A stretch of 64,000 bases of DNA from a virus, in the IMG/VR virus record IMGVR_UViG_3300042923_000307, positions 1 through 64,000 of that record; one strand, written 5' to 3'. Made by a program: the position numbers and the translations under genes. Below the pieces are notes generated by a model. That model was given only the letters and a program-made list of their open reading frames with translations. It ran no database searches and was not told where the DNA came from. This document shows, in pieces, positions 2,897-45,072 of the stretch (positions are counted from its first letter, which is position 1; every line of letters begins with the position of its first letter).

Positions 2897-3613
2897 ATGA
2901 CTAACACTGCACAAAAGATTGCCGAGTACAACGGAACTCAATTCCCTTTCCCAGCTGGTACTACTGCCCCAGTAATGCTTAACACCTTGAAAGCAATGTA
3001 CCCTGAATTGGAAACTGGTGGATACCGTGAAGAATCCGATAAGACTGTGTTCTTCGTTGTTGCTCAAAACAAATCTTTGGCTCAGAAAATCGCTGAGTAC
3101 AACGGAACTCAATTCCCTTTCCCAGAAGGTACTTCTGCCCCTGTTATGTTAAGTACTTTGAAAGCAATGTACCCTGAATTGGAAACTGGCGGCTACCGTG
3201 AAGAATCCGATAAGACTGTGTTCTTCGTAGTTGCACAAAACAAATCCATGGCTGCTGGCGACCAAAAGATTGCTGAGTACAATGGTACTCAATTTCCCTT
3301 CCCAGCTGGTACTTCTGCTCCTGTAATGTTAAACACTCTTAAAGCTATGTACCCTGAATTGGAAGCTGGCGGATACCGTGAAGAAGCAACTAAGACTGTA
3401 TTCTTCGTAGTAGCACAAAACAAATCATTCGCTGGTGGAGCTTCCATCATTGCTGAGTACAACGGTACTCAATTCCCCTTCCCTGCTGGAACTACTGCTC
3501 CAGTAATGCTGAATACTTTGAAAGCTATGTACCCTGAATTGGAAGCTGGCGGATACCGTGAAGAAGCAAATAAAACCGTGTTCTTCGTAGTAGCACAAAA
3601 CAAATCTAAATAA
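2897..3613 (+). CDS. four-repeat PRTRC_C (ubiquitin-like) protein, 238 aa
   Basis: The protein is four near-identical copies of one domain of about 54 residues, starting at residues 7, 64, 124 and 184, joined by linkers of 3-6 residues (LAQ, MAAGDQ, FAGGAS). Each copy matches PRTRC system protein C: YNGTQFPFP, then TLKAMYPEL, then KTVFFVVAQNKS. PRTRC cassettes on plasmids carry one copy next to B, A (JAB) and ThiF genes, as here. A beta-grasp, ubiquitin-like role is inferred from the JAB and E1-like partners. There is no terminal Gly-Gly; Gly pairs occur in the last linker. It has a strong GGAGGA site and mostly preferred codons, which suggests abundant expression. Confidence 0.88.
   Translation: MTNTAQKIAEYNGTQFPFPAGTTAPVMLNTLKAMYPELETGGYREESDKTVFFVVAQNKSLAQKIAEYNGTQFPFPEGTSAPVMLSTLKAMYPELETGGYREESDKTVFFVVAQNKSMAAGDQKIAEYNGTQFPFPAGTSAPVMLNTLKAMYPELEAGGYREEATKTVFFVVAQNKSFAGGASIIAEYNGTQFPFPAGTTAPVMLNTLKAMYPELEAGGYREEANKTVFFVVAQNKSK
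2915..3610 (+). repeat. four tandem PRTRC_C coding repeats
   Basis: The units begin at about 2915, 3086, 3266 and 3446 with spacings of 171, 180 and 180 bases. They are nearly identical as protein but differ at many third codon positions, so the copies are not a fresh duplication and have been kept alike at the protein level. Confidence 0.9.
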
Positions 3614-8940: not shown

Positions 8941-9504
8941 ATGAATAGTACGTTAGTCGTACTAATTGGGCCTAGTGGTGTGGGTAAAACTACGTTAGAA
9001 AAAGCTGCTGTTGAGAAGGGTGTAGCAACGTATAGGGTACGTTCAGTCACAGACAGGTCTCCAGGTAAAGGTGAAACAGAGGCTGATTACCTATTCGTTA
9101 ATAAGGGCGAGTTTGACCCTGGTGCTTGTATAGAGCACATTGAGTACGCAGGTAACAATTATGGTATACTTAAAGAAGAATTAGGTACAGCACTTGCTAC
9201 TGATAGGCCAATACTGTGCGCTGATATTCATGGTGCTAGGCAGTTAAAGAGGTATACGAAAGGGGAAGGTGTCGTACTTTTAGTATTCGTAGACGCTTCT
9301 GACGAGCAGCTTAGAGCACGCTTAGAGGCAAGAGGCAGAGGTTCTGTAGAAGAACGCATGGCTCGTGTATCTGTGGACAGGGAAGCTATACCTGAGTGCA
9401 ACGTATGCATAACTAATAATGATGGTAATATTAACGAGTCACTAGAATCCCTAAGAAAAGTATATGAAATGGGGGAAGCGCTATGCCGACTAAAGAGGAC
9501 GTAG
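8941..9504 (+). CDS. gmk: guanylate kinase, 187 aa
   Basis: The P-loop GPSGVGKTT is at residues 10-18, followed by a YRVRSVTDR block and by ADYLFVNKGEF and EYAGNNYGI, which match the GMP-binding region of guanylate kinases (usual EYAGNYYGT). It converts GMP to GDP for nucleotide supply. The length is near the family norm of about 190-205. AAGGAGAT precedes the ATG. It is the first gene after the palindrome region and overlaps the RNase H gene by 22 bases. Confidence 0.88.
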   Translation: MNSTLVVLIGPSGVGKTTLEKAAVEKGVATYRVRSVTDRSPGKGETEADYLFVNKGEFDPGACIEHIEYAGNNYGILKEELGTALATDRPILCADIHGARQLKRYTKGEGVVLLVFVDASDEQLRARLEARGRGSVEERMARVSVDREAIPECNVCITNNDGNINESLESLRKVYEMGEALCRLKRT

Positions 9505-9938
9505 AAAGTTTCAGTACAACAGCGACAATGCTACCTACACATGATGCTTTAGGAAATCCGTTTGTACATATGGCTAGTGACGGTGCATGTACATCTAACG
9601 GTGATGGTGGTTGTGCGTGGTTCGATGGTACTAACTATCATAAGTTAAAATGCAAAGTAAAGTCTACTAATAATAAGGAAGAGTATAAAGGTTTAATACA
9701 TCTATTACAAACTCTTATAGCAAATAAATTTGATGGTCGTGCATTGATAATGATGGATAGCCAACTAGTTGTTAATCAAATGAATGGCAGCTACTCTGTT
9801 AAGAACGAGGGTTTAAAACCTTTATATGCTAAGGCTGCGTCATTAGCGTCCGTGTTGGACGTCGAGATAATCTGGGTTCCAAGAACACACCCTATAATGG
9901 GTAAAGTCGATAAATTAGCTAAGGAGGCTGCGAGATGA
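9483..9938 (+). CDS. ribonuclease HI-like protein, 151 aa
   Basis: The RNase H pattern is present: ASDGACTSNGDGGCAW with the first Asp, NNKEEYKGLIHLL with Glu, ALIMMDSQLVVNQM with the second Asp, and WVPRTHPIMGKVDKLAKEA with His and the last Asp. It should cleave RNA in RNA-DNA hybrids, for example replication primers. It starts inside the guanylate kinase end after GGGGGAAG. Close genes gmk and rnh suggest a nucleotide and replication operon. Confidence 0.88.
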   Translation: MPTKEDVESFSTTATMLPTHDALGNPFVHMASDGACTSNGDGGCAWFDGTNYHKLKCKVKSTNNKEEYKGLIHLLQTLIANKFDGRALIMMDSQLVVNQMNGSYSVKNEGLKPLYAKAASLASVLDVEIIWVPRTHPIMGKVDKLAKEAAR

Positions 9939-22015: not shown

Positions 22016-25000
22016 ATGTATCTTGATATGCACGAGAAGTGGGACGTTATCAAAAGACACGTAACAGATGGTATACGGTCACTATTCCCTATAGAAGTTC
22101 CAAAAGGTAGAGTAGAGCTTATAAGCGTTGAAATGAAAGAGCCTGAAAACCTCGTATCAAGTCAGCGTGAAGCTTTGATAAAGGGCGGTAGTTTAACCGC
22201 CTCTGTTTATGGTACGTTCAGGTTAACTGACGGTCACGGAGGTACAGTTGATACTGCTAAGATAAAAATACTTGATTTACCTCTGATAACACACCGAGGA
22301 ACATTCGTAGTTCAGGGTAAGGACTATAGTGTATTCAATCAGATGCGTTTGCGCCCAGGAGTTTACACTACGAAGTCAGAGGAATCTGGTGACGTAACAT
22401 CACGTTTCAACTTAGGTAAAGGTCTAGGTTTCAAAATAGAACTTAGCCCTAATGAGGGTATATTTTACGTACGTTTTGATAAGTCTAAAGCTAGTACAAG
22501 TAGCCCTAAGATTCCGTTGTATTCACTAGTTCGCGTATTAGGAGCCGCTGACTCAGACATTAAAGCTAGATGGGGAGAACGAATCTATAATGCTAACCAC
22601 GATAAGTCTCACATAATAGAAGACGCACGTAAAATAGTTGACTTAACAGTATACGGGGCTAAGCGTACAGGTAATGATGTTGAGGACATACGTAACTATT
22701 TCAATGATACACAGCTTAACGGCGATACAACTAAAGTAACGCTAGGTAGCTCTTACGACAGGGTACAGGCTGGCGCATTACTTGATGCTACGGCTAAGAT
22801 GGTACATGTTTATAGTGGCGCTGAACATGAAGACGATATGGATAGCTTGCTGTTCAAGGAAATCTTATCTGTTGAAGACCACCTTATGCTACGTATACAG
22901 AAAGGTATTAAAGACACAGGTGTACTTACTAAGATTAAACGTAAGATAGGTGAGGAAAAAGAGCTTCGTAAGATTATCCCTACGAATATGCTTACCAAAC
23001 TGATTGAAACGTTCTATACTACGTCGTCTCTTGCGTCACCACAAACAGAGATTAACCCTATCGAGATTCTGGAAACAAACCATAAGATTACCGCTATGGG
23101 TGAAGGTGGTATTAAGAGTGAGCACGGTATACCTATGTCTGCCCGTAACTTACATCCATCGCACTTTGGATTCTTAGACCCTGTTCGTACAACAGAGTCA
23201 ACTCGAGTTGGTGTCGACTTACGTACGACACATAACTCAGAGGTAAAAAACCGAAACATATACACCACTTTCATAGACCGTAAAGGTGCCAAAGTATCAC
23301 TAAGACCTATTGACTTGAGTGGCAAAACGATAGGGTTCCCTGGTCAAGAAGGTCATAAGATAGTAAGAGTCTTGCTTAACGGTGAAATGAAAGAGGTTCC
23401 AGCAGCGTCGGTAGACTATTGGATGGAGAAGTCCAAGGATATGTTTACGTACACCTCTAACCTAGTTCCATTTCTACACAACGACCAAGGTAACCGTGTA
23501 ACTATGGCTTCACGTATGGTTACGCAAGCAGTTCCTCTGGTACATAGAGAGGCCCCACTGGTTCAGGTTGAAGACGAGAGTGAGCACGGAACATTCCAGA
23601 AAAGATTAGGTACAGAGTTCTTCTCACCTAAAGCACCAGAAGATGGTACGGTTAACGAGATAGGTGAAGGCTTCATTCGTATAAATAATAGAAAAGTAGA
23701 CCTTTATCATAACTTCCCACTTAACGAAAAGACATACATTCACATGACACCTTTGTTTAAAGTAGGAGACAAAGTAAAGAAAGGACAAATAGTAGCTGAA
23801 TCCAACTTCACTAAAGACGGAACACTAGCTATTGGTACTAACCTCCGTACAGCTTACATAGGGTATAAAGGTTGGAATCATGAGGATGGTATGGTAATTA
23901 GTCAACACGCAGCTACTAAGTTAACATCTCAGCATATGTACGTTAAGGAAGTTGAGAAGAGTGACGACGTAACTGTAGACAAAAACCGTCTAATCAAGTT
24001 CTTCCCATCCAAGATAACAGCAGAACAAATGCGTAAACTGGATGATGAAGGTGTAGCTCAGAAGGGTCAGACAATACACAAGGGTGACTATGTAATCGCA
24101 GCTTTAGCTAAGCGTGACCTTACAAACTCTGACATGATGTTATCCAAACTACGCGGAGCATTAGCTAACCCCTATAAAGACGTATCGGAAGTTTGGGACC
24201 ATGATAGACCAGGGACTGTAACAGACGTTATACGTAATGGTAACTTAGTCAGAGTAATACTTACCACAGAAGATGAAACTCGTGTAGGTGATAAACTTAC
24301 AGGTGTTCACGGTAATAAAGGTACAGTAACACTTATACTACCTAACCACGAAATGCCTAAGGATAAAGACGGAAAACATATTGACATGCTATGGAATACA
24401 GCTGGGGTTATATCCCGTGTTAATCCTGGTCAGCTTTATGAAGCTATGGCAGGTAAGATTGCTGCTAAGACAGGTTCTCCTTATATTGTTAAAAATTTCT
24501 CCCCTGAGGATAGTAGTCGTAAAGTTATTAATGAGCTTAAAGCCCACGGTTTAAAACCAGAAGAGGACCTATACGACGCTAAAACAGGACGCCATTTAGG
24601 TGAGGTATTCGTCGGAAATCCACACGTTCTTAAGTTACATAAGCAAACAGAGGGTAACTTCGCTGCTCGTTTCACTAAGAACTACGACGTTAACTTGCAG
24701 CCTGCTAAAGGCGGTGAGGAAGGTTCTAAAGCTATAGGTCTACAAGATGTGTATGCTTTACTAGGACACAACGCTAGAGCAAACCTACACGAAATGGGAG
24801 CATACAAGTCTCAACGTAATGAGGAGTTCTGGGATTCGGTACGTATAGGGTTACCAATACCACCAGCAAAAGAACCGTTTGCGTTTGAGAAGTTTAAATC
24901 GTTAATTGGTGCTGCTGGTATCCACGTTAACAAAGGTAAAGACGCGTATACTATAGCTCCTATGAGCGACAAGCACATAGTACACCAATCTGCTGGTGAA

Positions 25001-26143
25001 ATAAAGTCTAGCGCTTTATTAGCTAGTAGCATGAACTCTGTAAAAGTTGAACCAGGTGGTCTATTCGATGAGTCTGTAACAGGTGGTTTAAAAGGTAAAA
25101 ATTGGGCTCATATGGAACTATCTGAGCACATTATAAACCCACTATTTGGTAACGTAGTAAAGACTATGCTTGGTGGTACAGACCCTTATGAAATGAAACC
25201 ATCAGATGTAAAGGCACAACTAGCTAAAATAGATGTTGATAAACGTATAGCTGAAATTCGCTCAGCTCTTGGTAGTACTAAAGGTAGTCCTCGAGATAAA
25301 CTACTTAAAGAGCTACGGTACTTAATGGCAGCTAAGAAACTAGGTATGCACCCAAAAGACTACGTACTGTCTAAGTTCCCAATACTACCACCACAATTCA
25401 GACCTGTTTACCCATCACAGTCAGGCGGTGTGCCGATGGTATCCGATATTAACTATCTATACCGTGATATGATGAACGTAAACAATGAATTGTCTAAACT
25501 TAAAGACTTCCCAGAGACTGACCCTACAAAGCTTAAGCTACGTAAAGACTTACAGCAGGCCGCAGGTGCTATCGTAGGCGTAATGAAACCTGTTAATAAG
25601 AAGAGCGAGAAGCAAGACCTTCAAGGTGTTGTACCACTCTTAACAGGAGGTAAACTTGATGGAGGCGGTACTTCAAAAGAGAGCTTCTTCCACCGTAAGT
25701 TAATGAAGCGTAACCAGGATTTAACAGGTCGTGGTACGATTCTACCAGACCCTAGTTTGCACGTTGACTACGCTAAGATACCTATAGACATGGCGCACCA
25801 GTTATTCAAACCATTCGTAATTAATAACTTGGTTAAAAAGGGCCTAACACCTATCCAGGCAGCTAAAGACGTAGCCGACAGAACACACATAGCATCTAGG
25901 GCGTTAGAGGAAGAGATGGAACGCAGACCAATACTATTAAACCGTGCCCCAACTCTTCACAAGTACAACATGATGGCATTTAAACCTGTAGCCGTAGAAG
26001 GCAAGTCTATATTCATACCACCTCTAATTATCAAAGGGTTCAACGCCGACTTTGATGGTGATAGTGTCGCAGGTGATACGTACGTTATTGTACAAGACAC
26101 TGACGGAACAGTACGCTTGGTGAAAATAAAAGACGTTGAATAG
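22016..26143 (+). CDS. RNA polymerase beta-beta' fusion, N-terminal part, ending in N-intein, 1375 aa
   Basis: One polypeptide covers beta and the first part of beta'. Beta blocks include VVQGKDYSVFNQMRLRPGVY, GYKGWNHEDGMVISQ near residue 620, and RVGDKLTGVHGNKGTV near 760. Beta' blocks begin near residue 1030 (WAHMELSEHI), then LPPQFRPVYPSQSGG, LNRAPTLHKYNMMAFKP, and the Mg-binding NADFDGD at 1343-1349. There the extein stops: the last 26 residues are an N-intein. Beta-beta' fusion is known in some bacteria, and phages carry divergent multisubunit polymerases, but alone this chain lacks the trigger loop and bridge helix. The start follows AAGGAGC, two genes after the portal. Confidence 0.95.
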   Translation: MYLDMHEKWDVIKRHVTDGIRSLFPIEVPKGRVELISVEMKEPENLVSSQREALIKGGSLTASVYGTFRLTDGHGGTVDTAKIKILDLPLITHRGTFVVQGKDYSVFNQMRLRPGVYTTKSEESGDVTSRFNLGKGLGFKIELSPNEGIFYVRFDKSKASTSSPKIPLYSLVRVLGAADSDIKARWGERIYNANHDKSHIIEDARKIVDLTVYGAKRTGNDVEDIRNYFNDTQLNGDTTKVTLGSSYDRVQAGALLDATAKMVHVYSGAEHEDDMDSLLFKEILSVEDHLMLRIQKGIKDTGVLTKIKRKIGEEKELRKIIPTNMLTKLIETFYTTSSLASPQTEINPIEILETNHKITAMGEGGIKSEHGIPMSARNLHPSHFGFLDPVRTTESTRVGVDLRTTHNSEVKNRNIYTTFIDRKGAKVSLRPIDLSGKTIGFPGQEGHKIVRVLLNGEMKEVPAASVDYWMEKSKDMFTYTSNLVPFLHNDQGNRVTMASRMVTQAVPLVHREAPLVQVEDESEHGTFQKRLGTEFFSPKAPEDGTVNEIGEGFIRINNRKVDLYHNFPLNEKTYIHMTPLFKVGDKVKKGQIVAESNFTKDGTLAIGTNLRTAYIGYKGWNHEDGMVISQHAATKLTSQHMYVKEVEKSDDVTVDKNRLIKFFPSKITAEQMRKLDDEGVAQKGQTIHKGDYVIAALAKRDLTNSDMMLSKLRGALANPYKDVSEVWDHDRPGTVTDVIRNGNLVRVILTTEDETRVGDKLTGVHGNKGTVTLILPNHEMPKDKDGKHIDMLWNTAGVISRVNPGQLYEAMAGKIAAKTGSPYIVKNFSPEDSSRKVINELKAHGLKPEEDLYDAKTGRHLGEVFVGNPHVLKLHKQTEGNFAARFTKNYDVNLQPAKGGEEGSKAIGLQDVYALLGHNARANLHEMGAYKSQRNEEFWDSVRIGLPIPPAKEPFAFEKFKSLIGAAGIHVNKGKDAYTIAPMSDKHIVHQSAGEIKSSALLASSMNSVKVEPGGLFDESVTGGLKGKNWAHMELSEHIINPLFGNVVKTMLGGTDPYEMKPSDVKAQLAKIDVDKRIAEIRSALGSTKGSPRDKLLKELRYLMAAKKLGMHPKDYVLSKFPILPPQFRPVYPSQSGGVPMVSDINYLYRDMMNVNNELSKLKDFPETDPTKLKLRKDLQQAAGAIVGVMKPVNKKSEKQDLQGVVPLLTGGKLDGGGTSKESFFHRKLMKRNQDLTGRGTILPDPSLHVDYAKIPIDMAHQLFKPFVINNLVKKGLTPIQAAKDVADRTHIASRALEEEMERRPILLNRAPTLHKYNMMAFKPVAVEGKSIFIPPLIIKGFNADFDGDSVAGDTYVIVQDTDGTVRLVKIKDVE
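26063..26143 (+). other. N-intein fragment of a split intein (26 residues)
   Basis: Directly after NADFDGD, the sequence SVAGDTYVIVQDTDG matches intein block A, with Ser as first nucleophile and the GDT core. It ends 26 residues later at a TAG followed by a terminator, so the short piece is by design rather than a cloning or reading error. Joined with the 230-residue C part at 1132-1821 it gives a complete intein with blocks A, B, F and G. Confidence 0.88.
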
Positions 26144-34282: not shown

Positions 34283-34314
34283 ACACTCATTTTGTGGTAT
34301 AAGTATATTGTAGG
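34275..34314 (+). promoter_or_regulatory. class A promoter (RT operon)
   Basis: TGGTATAAG at 34295-34303 followed by TATATTGTAGG. It should drive the genes leading to the reverse transcriptase. Confidence 0.75.
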
Positions 34315-34343
34315 ATAGTTTTATTTTATAGTACAAGGAGCCG

Positions 34344-34523
34344 ATTGAGGGCGGCTACTCGGGAAGTGCCCGTACAGCCAATACTTTTTATTGGGCTGGT
34401 GTTACTATAAAGAATGGCATTCTATTCGCATTAATTTCCATACCAAGTTTCCTGTGCCTATCAGTACACAAAGTTGTAGAGACAGGAGCTTCACTACTCA
34501 AAGGGATGAGGGGAGGTAAGTAG
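34344..34523 (+). CDS. possible membrane peptide with non-standard start, 59 aa
   Basis: An open frame from ATT 34344, just after AAGGAG, codes a protein with ITIKNGILFALISIPSFLCLSV-like content, recalling the NGIK membrane proteins. ATT is a rare start. The alternative TTG at 34346 gives a different 21-residue hydrophobic frame. The last bases fall in a GAGGGGAGG/CCTCCCTC hairpin at 34508-34530. Low confidence. Confidence 0.3.
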   Translation: MEGGYSGSARTANTFYWAGVTIKNGILFALISIPSFLCLSVHKVVETGASLLKGMRGGK

Positions 34524-34558
34524 CCTCCCTCGTCTACTATCAAAAGGAGGATGACTTC

Positions 34559-35155
34559 ATGCTTTGTATTAACCTAACCAGTATCAGAGACAACAAGCCT
34601 ATAATACTAAATAATAAGCTGGCGGCCCACAGATTATACTTAGGCAGCAGTGACGTACCTAGTTTCCCGAATAGACTAGTTTTTAGCGTCACAGCAGATG
34701 AATTAGCACGACTATCTGCACAACTACAAGAACTTGAGGTAGACTGGGTAACAGAGGAACTAGCAGCACTGGAAAGAGTACCAGTGTTTTTGGTTATTCC
34801 CTTTGCACTACGAGTTCAAGAAGAGGCGTTTACTAGCTTCCGTGAGAGGTCTTCAGCGGTGACAGAATCACAGCTAAACCTAAACCTAGGCCAACCTTCA
34901 ATATTTATAAGGGGCTCACAATTCCCCATAATATGCACAGCGTGCGAACGGCAAGAGGAGTTAAAAGGTAGAAGATGCCCAGATTATGTAGAGGATAATT
35001 ATGGGTGCTTCAAGACATCGAGGTTCGCGCTAGACGCTATGGACACATTCTACTTAACAGAGAAAGGGGAGCTAGTTTATAATGCTACATCAATCAGTGC
35101 ACCACCAGAACAACAAGTGGAAAGTGACGCAAGTACCGCAACCATCGTCGCCTAA
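34559..35155 (+). CDS. hypothetical protein, 198 aa
   Basis: AAAGGAGGA precedes the ATG. The protein is soluble with helices (ADELARLSAQLQELEVDW) and a Cys-containing part (ICTACERQEELKGRRCPDY, GCFKTSRFALDAMDTFYLT) that could bind metal. It overlaps the RT gene by 74 bases, so the two are tightly linked. Not recognised. Confidence 0.72.
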   Translation: MLCINLTSIRDNKPIILNNKLAAHRLYLGSSDVPSFPNRLVFSVTADELARLSAQLQELEVDWVTEELAALERVPVFLVIPFALRVQEEAFTSFRERSSAVTESQLNLNLGQPSIFIRGSQFPIICTACERQEELKGRRCPDYVEDNYGCFKTSRFALDAMDTFYLTEKGELVYNATSISAPPEQQVESDASTATIVA

Positions 35156-36296
35156 TCATGACCTACCCGTACTATTAGACGAGTATAACCTATGCAACCT
35201 ATTGGGGTACAATGGTAAGTATCCTTGGTACGTAGTGCACAATGCGGCAGAGTGCTACCAAACATTCTGGATAGACAAAGATACAAAATGCGTAGTAAGC
35301 GAGTACAATGAGGACCTTAACTTACGAGAAATATCAGCCCCTAATGGTTCATTAAAAACACTGCAAGGAAGACTAGCGGGTCTTGTGCTAAGTAAGCTTC
35401 CTAAGCACGATTGTAACTACGCCTATATGTCAGGAAGAAATGTACGTCAGGCCGCTGATACTCAGGTAGACGGTGATGTATTAATTCGTATAGACCTAAA
35501 GGATTTCTTTACACATCACTACGAACCTTATGTTCGTGCTAAACTTCATGAGCTTACTGGGTATAGTAAAGAGATGTGCTGGTTTATTACTAAGTTATGC
35601 TCACTCAGAGGCAGCCTACCACAAGGCGCTGTTACGTCTCCTGTTCTGTCTGTTGTTCTAAATTACGATATGGATGTTAGAATATCTGATATTGCAGCAG
35701 CACACAATTTAGTGTATACTAGATATGCGGACGATTTATGCTTTAGTGGTTCCGATAGAAACGATGCGCACCTTCACTCTTTTATCAACGAAGTATCACA
35801 TGCAGTACACCCGTTCCGTGTAAACTGGAAGAAAGTTGATATTATGCGGAATAGTGCTAGAAGCTTCGTTTGCGGTATTGAAGTACGCGGAGTTACCCCT
35901 GAAATGGAGTTTAACCTTATTGAGGAAAATGGTTTTAAGGTTAAACGCACAGCATCAAAACTTATGTACACTACATCTAAGCCAGTTGCGGATGATGTGA
36001 TAACTTCCATATCTAACAGTATATTAAGCACCAATGCTAATGTAACAGTACGACCCAAGAGGTTTTATATGCAGAGTATTAAGCGTATGCTTGGTATGCA
36101 TTTAACTGACGGTATAAACTACCCTCGTGATAAGTATAAGAAGATGCGTGTAGAGGCAATGTTAGTATCCAAAGGAGCAACAAACGTAAATGTTGCACGG
36201 TTTAAAGGTCGGCTAGCATTTATGCGACTAGTAGACCCTGATAAGGCAAATAAGATTGATGAAATAATTAATAAACACAGGAGGGTGGCCCAATGA
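35082..36296 (+). CDS. retron-type reverse transcriptase, 404 aa
   Basis: RT motifs are in order: RNVRQAADTQVDGD, VLIRIDLKDFF (first Asp), GSLPQGAVTSPVLS near residue 178, the catalytic RYADDLCFSG (YADD at 215-218), then a region-Y-like NSARSFVCGIEVRG. The LPQG motif and the short length without a maturase domain favour retron-like RTs over diversity-generating ones, which have an SQ motif. Start ATG 35082 follows AAAGGGGAGC inside the preceding gene. A giant structured RNA lies 540 bases downstream. Which RNA it copies is unknown. Confidence 0.88.
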   Translation: MLHQSVHHQNNKWKVTQVPQPSSPNHDLPVLLDEYNLCNLLGYNGKYPWYVVHNAAECYQTFWIDKDTKCVVSEYNEDLNLREISAPNGSLKTLQGRLAGLVLSKLPKHDCNYAYMSGRNVRQAADTQVDGDVLIRIDLKDFFTHHYEPYVRAKLHELTGYSKEMCWFITKLCSLRGSLPQGAVTSPVLSVVLNYDMDVRISDIAAAHNLVYTRYADDLCFSGSDRNDAHLHSFINEVSHAVHPFRVNWKKVDIMRNSARSFVCGIEVRGVTPEMEFNLIEENGFKVKRTASKLMYTTSKPVADDVITSISNSILSTNANVTVRPKRFYMQSIKRMLGMHLTDGINYPRDKYKKMRVEAMLVSKGATNVNVARFKGRLAFMRLVDPDKANKIDEIINKHRRVAQ

Positions 36297-36799
36297 GTGT
36301 AGTTCAACTTGACCCAACGTTATTCGCTGATACAATACTCGAACTAATAGACGACCCACGATATGATAAGGTATTAGTGACTGGTATTAGTGGCGTGGAC
36401 AAAATGGCAATATATGCTACGATACTGGAGTCTTTAGACGGTACAGGTCTTCGTTACGGATATATGATTAACGAGAACATTGTTATTATGAGCGCTGACG
36501 ATATTAAGGATTACTTAGAGGAGTTAACAACAACTCTAATTGAGGACCAAGGATTAGAAGGCGAAGAGTCTGTAGCTTACAATCCTGATGCTGAGGCTAC
36601 GCTTAGTTACTACTACGAAGGTTATGGTGACCCATTCGGAACTGTGGAGGACGAGAGTGAGGCGTTTAACAATGCAGGAGGTGCTGACGATGATACTCAC
36701 ACTATCCTATCAGACTTCCTACAGTCGGCGCTAGAGGATAGTATTATCGTTATAACTGGGGGCTACAGGGAAATCAGCGCAAACTGCGTAATGTTATAA
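36293..36799 (+). CDS. acidic hypothetical protein downstream of RT, 168 aa
   Basis: Its ATG overlaps the RT stop (ATGA) after GGAGGG, so it is co-translated with RT. The protein is very acidic (DYLEELTTTLIEDQGLEGEE, YEGYGDPFGTVEDESEAF) with an N-terminal block KVLVTGISGVDKMA. No family recognised. Retron operons often carry an effector gene, so this is a candidate partner; that is inference. Confidence 0.72.
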   Translation: MSVVQLDPTLFADTILELIDDPRYDKVLVTGISGVDKMAIYATILESLDGTGLRYGYMINENIVIMSADDIKDYLEELTTTLIEDQGLEGEESVAYNPDAEATLSYYYEGYGDPFGTVEDESEAFNNAGGADDDTHTILSDFLQSALEDSIIVITGGYREISANCVML

Positions 36800-36802
36800 A
36801 TT

Positions 36803-36842
36803 CAAAAATAGGCCCTTGTTGTTGGTATAAGTATATTGTAGA
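36803..36842 (+). promoter_or_regulatory. class A promoter of the giant RNA
   Basis: CAAAAATAGGCC, 8 bases, TGGTATAAG (36823-36831), TATATTGTAGA. It is one of the best matches to the consensus and reads into a gene-free stretch of about 1.27 kb. Confidence 0.82.
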
Positions 36843-38115
36843 GGAGTTTAACACTCTACTCGCATATCTAGGCAGGTTATGACGGGGACTTCTTCGTCTA
36901 ATAATTCTCTCCTATCGGAGCTCCAGATGACGTCGTCATCGGGAAGCCTTCAGTGCACGCGTCTGCAGCTGCGGCCGCCCCGCGAGCACGGCACATGTCT
37001 AGCTTGATATGCAGGAAACGGAATCGTAGTAAACTTGTTGGAGATTTCTTCAACGCTACGTTGTAGCGACTTAGTCACGTAAGTCCGCATCCATAACTGG
37101 GTTGTCTTCCAGACGCTTCCCAGTTCTGAGCGTCGTACTTACTTAGACAAATCGCTGCTAGCTCAACCGCAGCGCCTTGATGGCACTGCTCACGAGACAA
37201 GTGGACTTCCGTTTCCACTCTAATTAGGTTATAAGCAGCACACGTTGGCGATGATTTCATCGCAACCTCAGCAATGAGGCTGCCGTTCACGTGAACCGAA
37301 CAATCCGCGATGCTCCGCACGCGTATCCGTTCTCGTCACGTACACACCGCCCTCACCTGGTCCCCAGGATGAGATGGAATGTAGTCGAGTGCTTAACCTA
37401 GTTGAAATCATCTGGTGTAGAGTTCTACACTAACGACCACTGGTCGTTGCATGACCTGATGAGCTCAGGAGAGACTCATCTCGAGCATGCCGTCGGGCCC
37501 TTGAGCCCGCAGGCGCTAGTAAGAACTTGGTAAGCAAAGTTCCCGTAGTTCCGTATTAAGAACAAGATGGCGGTGACTTCACTGCTACCCATTTATTGGG
37601 CCGTAGAGGGAGGCCCTACTAATTGTCTGCTGGTCCTGGAGGAGTAATAACGGTGTCAATAACTGCAGTGTTAATGGTATTGAATTATCTGATTTCCCAA
37701 AACACTGAAAACATCTCTTCAGGTCTCCAGCTCTCAAGCCCAGCTTGAGAACCAGAGACGAGTTAAATGCGGAACGGTACAAGCCCGATACAGAGAGCAC
37801 CTAAGATAGTATACAATGACGATGATTTCGTCGTCCATATTTATTTCCCCTAGGTATTATTTCTGCACTTCGTTCGAATTAATACCCTGAGGATTACGAG
37901 TTCCATAGTCAAGTATCTTAGGTGCTTAAAGTGTCAAAGAGAGAAAAAGGGGAGAAGCACAGAACACATTGGCGATGATTTCATCGCTTAAAATATATTA
38001 CCAGCGGGCCATACACAGATGTGACTTCGTCAACATCCGTTACTGGACCTGCGGTATGACATCCGCCGCAGCTGCGCCTGCGAGCAGTGATGAGTGTTCT
38101 TCTCTCCTTTTTTTT
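36843..38115 (+). ncRNA. candidate giant structured noncoding RNA, about 1.27 kb
   Basis: The stretch has no credible gene, is visibly richer in G+C than its surroundings, begins at a class A promoter and ends in a helix plus eight T. It is packed with hairpins: 37054-37068, 37096-37124 (two nested stems), 37153-37174, 37248-37263, 37266-37279 (CCTCA, GCAA tetraloop, TGAGG), 37356-37368, 37415-37430, 37432-37448, 37570-37585, 37723-37759 and 38018-38037. Long-range helices include 37796-37808 with 37914-37926 (13 perfect pairs) and 37952-37967 with 38094-38104. The design recalls ornate large phage RNAs such as GOLLD and ROOL, but I cannot match it to any of them. Confidence 0.8.
38094..38115 (+). 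terminator. end of the giant RNA
   Basis: GTGTTC (38094-38099) and TTCTC (38100-38104) pair back to GAACAC (37962-37967) and GAGAA (37952-37956), and eight T follow. The terminator stem therefore also closes the last RNA domain. Confidence 0.65.
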
Positions 38116-41894: not shown

Positions 41895-42278
41895 ATGAGT
41901 AACAAATTTATAAATGCTCAGTATTCAACAAATAATGTGGATGTAGGTGTATACACAATTAAGACAGACGAAAAAGTAGCTGCGAGACCAGTAGTGGCAC
42001 TAATGATACCTAGAATGGAAGGTAATTATAATAAAGGTTTATTTGAGTGCGCAGTAAACACTCTGTCAGACGCAGCCTCTGCCTTACGATATAACAAAAA
42101 GGGTTACGAGTCTAACCAGACGGAGCATGGTATAGACGAGGACCTTCAACGTATTGTTAAGACTATGACTGCGACATTACAATACATTGTTAACTCTACT
42201 TCATGGCGTACAGGTGAGTACCACGTTTTTGATAGAGCTGAAATTGAAAATAGACTTAGGGGGTTGTCACATGGATAA
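41895..42278 (+). CDS. hypothetical protein, 127 aa
   Basis: TAGGAGG precedes the ATG. Soluble, mixed composition (VGVYTIKTDEKVAARPVVAL, LFECAVNTLSDAASALRYN). Not recognised. The last eight bases overlap the NMN adenylyltransferase gene, so it heads the NAD-salvage run. Confidence 0.7.
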   Translation: MSNKFINAQYSTNNVDVGVYTIKTDEKVAARPVVALMIPRMEGNYNKGLFECAVNTLSDAASALRYNKKGYESNQTEHGIDEDLQRIVKTMTATLQYIVNSTSWRTGEYHVFDRAEIENRLRGLSHG

Positions 42279-43362
42279 CGTAACTACTGATGAAACCGCA
42301 TATGTAGATAAGAAGTACAAGTGGGCTGTTTATATGGGGAGGTTTCAACCATTCCATGATGGTCATATGAATGTACTCAATGAGGCATTTAAGGTAGCAG
42401 AAAAGGTTATACTTCTTATAGGTGGACAAGATAAGGCACGGCAGGTTAAGAACCCTTGGACTTACTTCGAAAGAATGACTATGGTACTAAACTCCGTTCC
42501 GTACGAATATACAGAAAACTTATTCGTAGCAGGAATACACGACCATCCGTATAGTGATACAGATTGGGCGTCGGAGGTTAGGTCTATAGTCAAGTACAAC
42601 ACAGAAGAAGAAGACTCTATAGCTCTTGTCGGTCATCAAAAGGATGCTAGCTCATACTACCTAGGGTTGTTTCCTGACTGGGAATACGTAGAAGTTGGTA
42701 ACTACAAGAATATTGATGCTACAACTATTCGCGATATATACTTTAATCATGGTCATGTAAATATGGTAACATGCGTACCTAACGGAACAGCGGCTATAAT
42801 GACTAGGTTCTTAAGCACTTCGACTTATTCACACCTAGTAGAGGAGTTTAAGTTCTTAAAGCAGCATAAGGCTGCGTGGTCAGGTACGCCATTTCCTAAT
42901 GTGTTCGTAACAGTAGATATCGCTGCTATATGCGACGATAGAATACTGCTTATTAAACGTGGTGGTCAACCTGGTAAAGGGTTAACGGCTCTACCTGGTG
43001 GTTATATAGATGTAAACGAACGTATCGTAGAATCAGCTCGTAGGGAGTTAGAAGAAGAAACTACAATGCACTTCTCACCTGGAGCATTCGAACAACATTG
43101 TATAGCTAACAAGGTGTTTGACCACCCACAGCGTTCTCAGATTGGTAGAGGTATAACACATCTATTTGTGCTTGACCTTGACGACACATCTGCTAACTTA
43201 TACGCAACAGCAGCTGACGATGCAGCTAGTCTATCATGGATACCACTATACGAATTGGAGCAGAGACGCTCCCTATTCAGTGGCGACCACTACTACATGG
43301 CACTATACGCTAAAGAGCAGTACTACAAGAATAAAGTCAAGGAGGCTACAATATGCGATTAG
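42271..43362 (+). CDS. nadM: NMN adenylyltransferase-Nudix fusion, 363 aa
   Basis: ATG 42271 follows TAGGGGG. The N-terminal half has the nucleotidyltransferase motif YMGRFQPFHDGHMNV and the later INIDATTIRD-type ISSTxxR region (NIDATTIRDIYF), as in NadM. The C-terminal half has a full Nudix box (GGYIDVNERIVE then RRELEEET). Such fusions make NAD from NMN and ATP and clear ADP-ribose or related compounds. With the nicotinamide phosphoribosyltransferase downstream it forms a two-step NAD salvage route. Confidence 0.92.
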   Translation: MDNVTTDETAYVDKKYKWAVYMGRFQPFHDGHMNVLNEAFKVAEKVILLIGGQDKARQVKNPWTYFERMTMVLNSVPYEYTENLFVAGIHDHPYSDTDWASEVRSIVKYNTEEEDSIALVGHQKDASSYYLGLFPDWEYVEVGNYKNIDATTIRDIYFNHGHVNMVTCVPNGTAAIMTRFLSTSTYSHLVEEFKFLKQHKAAWSGTPFPNVFVTVDIAAICDDRILLIKRGGQPGKGLTALPGGYIDVNERIVESARRELEEETTMHFSPGAFEQHCIANKVFDHPQRSQIGRGITHLFVLDLDDTSANLYATAADDAASLSWIPLYELEQRRSLFSGDHYYMALYAKEQYYKNKVKEATICD

Positions 43363-43682
43363 AGGTAATGACGTCACTTATTAACCAAATAATGGATATG
43401 GACAACAGAAGTATAGAGCAGCGTGTGATTAAGACTGGTGAGGAATATGGTGAAATGTGCGAAGCTGTATGCTCTGCGACTGGTGCCATAGGTTGTGGTT
43501 ATAAGGGAAAGACAATGGACGATGTAGTAGAGGAATCATGGGATACAATAATCTGCGCATTATCTGTAGCTTTACAGGCTAAACCTGATATGACTCCTAA
43601 AGAACATAAGGAAGTTTTCATGCGTAAGTTAATTAAATGGGAACAAAAAGTAAAAGAAGGGCAGGCGGTTAATAATGCATAA
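43353..43682 (+). CDS. MazG-like nucleotide pyrophosphohydrolase, 109 aa
   Basis: ATG 43353 follows AAGGAGG inside the previous gene. The MazG metal-binding pattern is visible as KTGEEYGEMCEAV (ExxE) and VVEESWDTIICAL (ExxD). These enzymes hydrolyse nucleoside triphosphates to monophosphates, and phage forms may act on dNTPs or on alarmone levels. It lies between the two NAD-salvage genes. Confidence 0.82.
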   Translation: MRLEVMTSLINQIMDMDNRSIEQRVIKTGEEYGEMCEAVCSATGAIGCGYKGKTMDDVVEESWDTIICALSVALQAKPDMTPKEHKEVFMRKLIKWEQKVKEGQAVNNA

Positions 43683-45072
43683 CTTATTTACAAATCTTAT
43701 TTTGAATACTGATAGTTACAAGGCGAGTCATTACCTACAGTACCCACCTATGGTAAGTGGGTTAATGAGCTACATCGAAGCTAGGGGTAATGGTCAACGT
43801 AAGACGACGTTCTTTGGTTTGCAGATGTTTCTCATTGAATACCTATCTAAACCTATAACTCAGGCTGATATAGATATAGCTGAGCCTATATTCTTAGCGC
43901 ATGGTGAACCTTTTAATCGCGCTGGATGGGAGTATATCCTTAATAAGCACAACGGTTATATGCCTGTACGTATAAAAGCAGTACCAGAAGGACGTAGAGT
44001 ACCTACAGGAAACGTCCTAGTTACTGTTGAGTCCACCGACCCTCACGTATTCTGGGTTGTTAACTACTTAGAGACTGCGCTGCTACGTGCCGTTTGGTAT
44101 CCAACAACTGTGTGCTCTATTAGTCGTGAAATCAAGGACTTGGTATCACAATTCTTACGTGATACATCAGAGAACACGGAGCCTGAAAGCCTGTTTAAGT
44201 TACATGATTTTGGTTCTCGTGGTGTAAGCAGCCGTGAAAGCGCTGGTATTGGGGGTATTTCCCACCTTGTAAACTTCATGGGTACAGACACCATTGAGGG
44301 GATTATTGCGGGTAAGGTATACTACGGATGCGATATGGCTGGGTTCTCAATTCCTGCGGCAGAGCACAGCACAATTACGTCATGGGGTAAATCTCACGAA
44401 GCCGACGCATACCGTAACATGGTTAAGCAGTTCGGTGGAAAAGGTAAACTCGTTGCGGTTGTTAGCGATAGCTACAACATATTCAATGCGTGTGAGCGTA
44501 TTTGGGGAGAAGAGTTGCGCCAAGAAGTTATCGATAGCGGCGCTACTGTTGTAGTTCGTCCAGATTCAGGAGACCCTGTAACTGTTGTCCTTAAATGTAC
44601 TGAAATTCTAGGAGATAAGTTCGGTTATACTACCAATGCTAAAGGTTACAAAGTACTAAAACATGTACGTGTTATCCAAGGTGATGGTATTGACAACCCT
44701 ATGATTTATGACATTCTATCCACGCTTAAACGTAATGGTTGGAGTGCGGAAAACGTAGCATTTGGTATGGGTGGCGCGTTACTACAACACCCTAACCGTG
44801 ATACTTACAGTTTCGCTATGAAATGCTGCGCCATCCGTAAAGATGGTGTTTGGCAGGATGTGTATAAAGACCCCGCTACTGACTCACGTAAGAAGTCCAA
44901 GGCAGGAAGAATTTCGCTGTACGAAGATGTAGATGGAGGTTTACACTCTGAAAAGATTGACACTGTTGAGGCAGTAGACCAGTTAACTGAGGTACTAGTA
45001 CCTGTATTTGAGAACGGTAAAATACTTAAGCTATATACCTTCGATGAGGTACGTAAAAACAGCCAAGCGTAA
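43675..45072 (+). CDS. nadV: nicotinamide phosphoribosyltransferase, 465 aa
   Basis: The protein is full length for the NAMPT/NadV family. Key blocks are LNTDSYKASHYLQYP at the start, FKLHDFGSRGVSS, the AAEHSTITSWG segment with the catalytic-site His region, VSDSYNIFNACE and VVVRPDSGDPV. It joins nicotinamide and PRPP to NMN, which the fusion enzyme coded upstream turns into NAD. It overlaps the MazG-like gene by eight bases. Phages use such pairs to restore NAD removed by host defence; that use here is inferred. Confidence 0.95.
   Translation: MHNLFTNLILNTDSYKASHYLQYPPMVSGLMSYIEARGNGQRKTTFFGLQMFLIEYLSKPITQADIDIAEPIFLAHGEPFNRAGWEYILNKHNGYMPVRIKAVPEGRRVPTGNVLVTVESTDPHVFWVVNYLETALLRAVWYPTTVCSISREIKDLVSQFLRDTSENTEPESLFKLHDFGSRGVSSRESAGIGGISHLVNFMGTDTIEGIIAGKVYYGCDMAGFSIPAAEHSTITSWGKSHEADAYRNMVKQFGGKGKLVAVVSDSYNIFNACERIWGEELRQEVIDSGATVVVRPDSGDPVTVVLKCTEILGDKFGYTTNAKGYKVLKHVRVIQGDGIDNPMIYDILSTLKRNGWSAENVAFGMGGALLQHPNRDTYSFAMKCCAIRKDGVWQDVYKDPATDSRKKSKAGRISLYEDVDGGLHSEKIDTVEAVDQLTEVLVPVFENGKILKLYTFDEVRKNSQA

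Follow-up and report, generated by a model that had tools for sequence, protein, structure and literature searches.

The region analyzed here occupies positions 36843-38115 of the window, by which we mean the whole 64,000-nucleotide stretch of viral DNA under study, and lies between a 168-aa open reading frame (ORF) on one side and a metallophosphoesterase gene on the other, all on the plus strand. A first-pass annotation had described it as a gene-free, GC-rich stretch with its own promoter and a terminal T-run, and on each of these points our results agree. ORFs of at least 100 aa are absent, the longest being 81 aa on the minus strand; the forward frames contain 16, 23, and 29 stops, and a coding array was rejected because stops occur in all frames. 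GC content is 47–53%, compared with approximately 41% in the surroundings. The region begins 5 nt past an exact plus-strand copy of GGTATAAGTATATTG at 36824-36838, a motif common to related phages, and ends in eight T residues at 38108-38115 on the same strand. Allowing up to two mismatches, we count eight copies of GGTATAAGTATATTG across the window against an expectation of 0.38, and five of the eight are exact (window positions 1897, 2690, 34296, 36824, and 54541). This excess and the sharing of the motif among related phages indicate that GGTATAAGTATATTG is very probably the promoter for the phage's own RNA polymerase.

Judged from its terminase and its fused RNA polymerase, the phage falls in a little-known lineage together with Salmonella phage Arash (PMC10585845) and Vibrio phages D69, D148, and D181. 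The fused RNA polymerase beta/beta' ORF at 22016-26143 breaks off just past the catalytic NADFDGD (GFNADFDGDSVAGDTYVIV...), at what looks like the start of an intein. The protein encoded elsewhere in the window, at 2897-3613, comprises four repeats that are almost identical (AEYNGTQFPFPAGT...APVMLNTLKAMYPELE...) and matches the CUE domain weakly.

Adjoining the array upstream on the same strand, and overlooked in the first-pass annotation, is a gene for a reverse transcriptase (RT) of 404 aa with a YADD motif (35082-36296, plus strand; the true start may be further downstream). By profile, sequence, and predicted fold this RT is of retron type. Its best RT profiles in PADLOC are retron types (RT_III-A, 1.6e-53), a PDB sequence search returned matches exclusively to retron RTs (Ec86, 4.9e-20), and among NCBIfam models it matched the St85 retron RT at 3.9e-47 and 161 bits, which is below the model cut-off of 235, with scores of 29 bits for Drt2 (cut-off 390), 24 bits for Drt3a (cut-off 200), and 24 for group II intron RTs. 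The structure model is of moderate quality (pLDDT 56 overall, about 77–86 in the best core blocks); the first 18 Foldseek matches to it were all retron RT chains, with low TM-scores, and the RTs of DRT systems were distant structural matches. Retron RTs carry the hallmark motifs NAxxH and VTG, and the positions aligned to them here read QAADT and VCG, neither of which is the hallmark.

The RT gene sits in a small operon downstream of another exact GGTATAAGTATATTG copy (34296-34310, plus strand). A 198-aa ORF (34559-35155, plus strand) without a family match overlaps the RT start, and such an ORF pair occurs in all related phages inspected. The RT stop is overlapped (ATGA) by the 168-aa ORF (36293-36799, plus strand), whose product is very acidic, with 35 D/E against 6 K/R; searches returned no family for it and its AF2 model was uninformative (pLDDT 45). 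This protein is a candidate effector or accessory, and no known retron effector was found near the RT. Right after the upstream promoter lies an 89-nt element, E0 (34324-34412, plus strand), with a 10-bp helix formed by TTTTATAGTA and TACTATAAAG and a GAGC shortly past the first arm; its folding support is weak (z −2.3 for 34311-34558). E0 is possibly a further RT-associated RNA, unlike those of the array, and may even be the RT's real template. The phage also encodes an RNase H (9483-9938; Pfam RNase_H, 1.2e-6), possibly relevant to maturing RT products.

The array itself is strongly structured, as had been proposed. Against dinucleotide shuffles, 36840-37839 folds with z = −6.7, and 600-nt tiles of the plus strand gave z-scores of −4.3, −8.0, and −7.8, compared with −1.3 to +0.4 for eight coding controls outside the array. 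The minus strand scores as well as the plus strand, so energy alone leaves the strand open; it is the promoter, the T-run, and the order of elements within modules that point to the plus strand. Two individual structures from the first-pass annotation, a long-range helix of 13 bp (37796-37808 with 37914-37926) and a GNRA hairpin (GCAA loop, 37266-37279), were found exactly as described, while that account missed that the long-range helices of the region are the closing helices of repeated modules. An Rfam search, which it had advised, produced zero matches for the whole window at the gathering threshold and no meaningful match for the region at E≤10; group I or II intron identity was rejected for lack of an Rfam match. 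Of the proposed giant structured RNA, what stands is that the region is large, strongly structured, apparently transcribed as a unit of its own, and of no Rfam class, while a single ornate fold in the style of GOLLD or ROOL is the poorer reading. The region is a tandem array of six modules, and if these are indeed retron templates, they would be a variant of the retron kind in place of the suggested new RNA class.

The six modules, A to F, of 133–228 nt each, are arranged within 1.27 kb. Each consists, in order, of a 5′ arm (a1), a linker of 9–16 nt containing AG, a hairpin (H1), a variable interior of 58–159 nt, a 3′ motif G(A/U)(C/U)NAG, a gap of 0–8 nt, and a 3′ arm (a2) that pairs with a1 end to end in a helix of 7–16 bp. 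H1 has a stem of 6–8 bp and a 4-nt loop, A(C/U)UU, closed by G-C, and is held 9–16 nt past a1 in all six modules. Of eight occurrences of the 3′ motif in the region, six directly precede an a2 arm, one for each module. Mean pair probabilities in the global fold are 0.87–0.99 for all closing helices except one.

All modules lie on the plus strand. Module A (36862-37012; a1 GCATATC at 36862-36868, H1 with loop ACUU at 36881-36898, GUCUAG at 36997-37002, a2 at 37006-37012) is the weakest, its closing helix being no better than shuffles and replaced in the global fold by long-range pairs. Module B (37014-37216) is closed by 10 bp with a pair probability of 0.98 and a z-score of −6.1, with H1 (AUUU) at 37037-37054 and GACAAG at 37196-37201. 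Module C (37221-37404; 11 bp, pair probability 0.87, z −4.4) has CAGC after a1, H1 (AUUU) at 37248-37263, and GUCGAG at 37384-37389, and shares with module F 24 nt around H1 that are 96% identical. Between C and D lie 143 nt (37405-37547), a spacer or degenerate module with several hairpins (z −2.9), in which neither an H1-type hairpin nor GAYUUC was found. Module D (37548-37775; 10 bp, pair probability 0.97, z −4.7; H1 with loop ACUU at 37568-37587, GACGAG at 37757-37762) has a duplex that, taken alone, does not differ significantly from shuffles (p 0.23). Module E (37795-37927; 14 bp, pair probability 0.99, duplex p 0.001, z −6.9) carries H1 (AUUU) at 37818-37835 and GUCAAG at 37908-37913, and its a1 stops directly 5′ of a G (AUAG). 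Module F (37942-38114; 16 bp, pair probability 0.89, duplex p 0.0045, z −6.5) has CAGA at the inner end of a1, H1 (AUUU) at 37971-37988, and GAUGAG at 38089-38094, and its a2 merges into the terminal T-run. Conservation between the diverged modules is confined to H1, its flank, and the 3′ motif, the H1 loop and 5′ flank being best conserved, a pattern expected if one protein reads all modules.

Several comparisons bear on whether this arrangement exceeds chance. A grammar requiring an H1 tetraloop hairpin of at least 6 bp, a closing helix of at least 7 bp, and a 3′ motif no more than 8 nt from a2 gave 112 matches in 2.97 Mb strand-bases (both strands) of phage DNA, mostly from related phages, or 0.038/kb; with the A(C/U)UU loop added, only 2 matches remained in 2.97 Mb of other phage DNA. 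In the window the grammar found the six modules and two stray matches. Six consecutive non-overlapping modules compare with 0.05 expected, and the nominal Poisson P of 2e-11 is descriptive, the grammar having been derived from the array. Inside the region, 7 of 9 occurrences of GAYTTC stand at the tip of a stem of 6 bp or more, compared with 0 of 25 elsewhere in the window (P 7e-6) and 67 of 2336 in the DNA of related and other phages. Compared with shuffles, the closing helices had a combined P of 2e-5; singly, those of B, C, E, and F passed and those of A and D failed. In comparisons of one module with another, both sides had changed at 11 of 14 stem pairs and 98.8% of cells were still paired, with nothing near that value among sliding partners, but this is a consistency check and not proof, since the helices had been selected in part for their pairing.

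The anatomy of the modules invites comparison with retrons. Retron RNAs have ends complementary over roughly 8–30 nt, one to three msr hairpins of 7–10 bp, and a long msd hairpin; the priming G lies mostly in TAGC, but also in CAGC, CAGA, or GAGC, within or just past the inner end of a1, the RT recognizes a stem of 8–9 bp with a small loop, and the Mx162 transcript is 241 nt (PMC6868368). For our comparison, msr hairpin loops of 3–10 nt were accepted and ACGC was also included in the set for the priming G. The array resembles a retron in having a catalytic YxDD RT beside the RNA, as in the Ec86, Ec67, and St85 and type III-A groups, in complementary module ends of 7–16 bp (weak in A), in a 6–8 bp hairpin with a 4-nt loop shortly past a1 in all six modules, in a G close to the inner end of a1, and in module lengths of 133–228 nt. 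The tetranucleotides at the priming position are CAGG, TAGT, CAGC, AAGA, TAGT, and CAGA in A through F, exact to consensus in C and F but outside it in A, B, D, and E, with triplets that vary (AGG, AGT, AGC, AGA) where a strict AGC might be looked for. The msd-type single long hairpin is clear only in B, whose interior forms a long imperfect hairpin; C, D, and F are branched and E is short. The array differs from a retron in having six tandem templates rather than one, in lying downstream of the RT under its own phage promoter, in an RT without exact NAxxH and VTG and with no known effector nearby, and in being carried by a phage genome of the Arash-like lineage. To our knowledge, each known retron has a single template RNA for its RT, and the open-licence literature searched yielded no account of a tandem array of templates in a retron. 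The nearest precedent known to us is the repetitive msDNA-like sequences of Nannocystis exedens, which, to go by titles from Lampson and Rice in 1997 (cited in PMC6868368), are reportedly repeated, probably retrotransposed partial msDNA copies in the chromosome. As far as those titles reveal, the likeness is in several msDNA-related copies per genome and the difference is that the present array comprises six diverged, complete-looking modules in one tandem transcription unit.

Related phages provide context for the RT more than for the array. A scan of IMG/VR with RNA polymerase profiles yielded 41 further loci of the lineage, and 15 of the 30 Arash-lineage records searched (loci L063–L077) encode a retron-type RT; among the lineage RTs inspected, a small ORF overlaps the RT start and VCG replaces VTG in most. 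The closest RT, 39% identical, is in genome G023 (L098/L063), where an element of 85 nt lies upstream of the RT operon, in the place corresponding to that of E0; it has a closing helix of 9 bp, a GAGC, and a hairpin of 8 bp capped by the tetraloop AAGC. This element is a candidate compact retron RNA. The array was not found in this closest relative, whose RT could have the 85-nt element as its template, and for that reason the array may be an addition to the RT or unrelated to it. A stretch of 2.35 kb in the same relative (L063, 13181-15534), poor in ORFs, was considered as a second array and rejected, being composed of small ORFs and probable intron remnants. The terminase gene of this phage is split and lies near an ORF for an HNH-type endonuclease (L063, 10277-13180), which suggests an intron. 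In loci L065–L070, two features stand just before the small-gene and RT pair, approximately 300–350 nt upstream of the small gene: a short ORF encoding a hydrophobic or amphipathic peptide (MGKFLKKLVMVVRVVKIVLRIV...) and a GGTAGAAACTACC-type hairpin whose changes are compensated between phages.

Searches for a homologue of the array found none. Negative results were obtained by blastn against 50,697 phage records, by single-sequence scans of IMG/VR with the RT and TerL (no match), and with an exact 19-mer of H1, while a degenerate 18-mer gave 51 stretches with a single match each and no array. Hairpin clusters and the grammar revealed no second array in the RT neighborhoods of the 41-locus set or in near-complete sequences of four records, and there was no module in the remaining 5.7 kb of the virus record. 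RT-subfamily scans recovered from IMG/VR only the G023 relative, and from genomes ordinary distant RTs. The lineage promoter 18-mer (GGTATAAGTATATTG with TAG) is present in several lineage contigs, once in a contig of 335 kb, and a search with it located related contigs, none with an array. With no homologue found, support for the array is confined to comparison between the modules of one genome.

The explanation that we favor, and hold to be somewhat more probable than all others together, makes the six units retron-like template RNAs (msr-msd modules) that form a polycistronic array and belong to a phage-encoded retron. The phage polymerase would transcribe approximately 1.27 kb, starting at the 36824 promoter and stopping at the 38108 T-run, and each module would fold independently, with a1 paired to a2 and H1 held at its set distance past a1. 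A single RT, encoded upstream, would recognize H1 of every module; by analogy with retron chemistry, the G close to the inner end of a1 would prime synthesis, and copying would begin at or near the G(A/U)(C/U)NAG beside a2. That one RT could serve six templates is suggested by the elements conserved between diverged modules, which are those an RT would need. Up to six different RNA-linked single-stranded DNAs could result, and the phage RNase H could mature them, such an activity being needed for maturation. Chances appear evenly balanced that this is a multiplex retron in the full sense, one RT copying six templates from one transcript into distinct msDNAs that act as phage decoys or sensors against host defences or other phages. 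Purpose is the least certain step; the products might be DNA or RNA decoys or sensors directed at host defences or rival phages, possibly partnered by the acidic 168-aa protein. Close to the array, at 42187-45072, an adenylyltransferase-NUDIX protein is encoded beside a nicotinamide phosphoribosyltransferase (Pfam), an NAD-salvage pair. Phages use such genes against NAD-depleting defences, and their proximity makes counter-defence decoys plausible, if still a tentative and rather doubtful assignment. Defence against other phages, with the acidic protein as effector, is about as likely, or only slightly less so.

Alternatively, module duplication could have built an RNA of structural or regulatory function, comparable to GOLLD, ROOL, or OLE, that is unrelated to the RT and possibly multimerizes. 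Very strong folding over the full length, an own promoter, and long-range pairing of module A with the spacer, at probabilities of 0.8–0.9, would all fit such an RNA, and large phage RNAs exist, GOLLD and ROOL among them, often near tRNA islands (PMC12286853). Yet there is no match to an Rfam covariance model, no tRNA was found anywhere in the window, and the modular layout of a1/a2, H1, and 3′ motif beside a retron RT is foreign to those classes, for which reasons we consider this origin distinctly unlikely. The conservation of the H1 loop and 5′ flank above all else could instead reflect a sponge, in which six H1 copies titrate out an RNA-binding protein from host or phage, or an RNA-protein pair in which the RNA is the antitoxin and the adjoining 168-aa ORF could supply the partner. 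A CsrA-type sponge was rejected, there being no GGA loops by eye. More generally, a sponge or antitoxin would make the closing helices, 3′ motif, and long variable interiors superfluous, would have units of 133–228 nt that far exceed known tandem RNA antitoxin repeats, and would leave the RT neighbor unexplained, and it seems quite improbable.

An RT with an adjacent structured RNA as template is also the arrangement of DRT2 and DRT9, and the whole region might be a single long template copied end to end, as in those systems, in place of separate msDNAs. DRT RTs do appear among the distant structural matches, but by score and fold the RT here groups with retron RTs, being far closer to St85 than to Drt2, and the RNA is a series of modules each with its own closing helix, as in a retron template; end-to-end copying is accordingly the least credible of the alternatives, and in our view highly improbable.

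If the favored reading of a phage-encoded retron with six templates is true, the array would be a natural demonstration of how one retron RT tolerates divergent templates, and a ready-made scaffold for multiplex DNA production in cells. In the conflict over defence, it would also place retrons among the means of the phage. A caution follows, namely that a long structured RNA region in a phage may turn out to be a series of RT templates and not a new class of ornate RNA.
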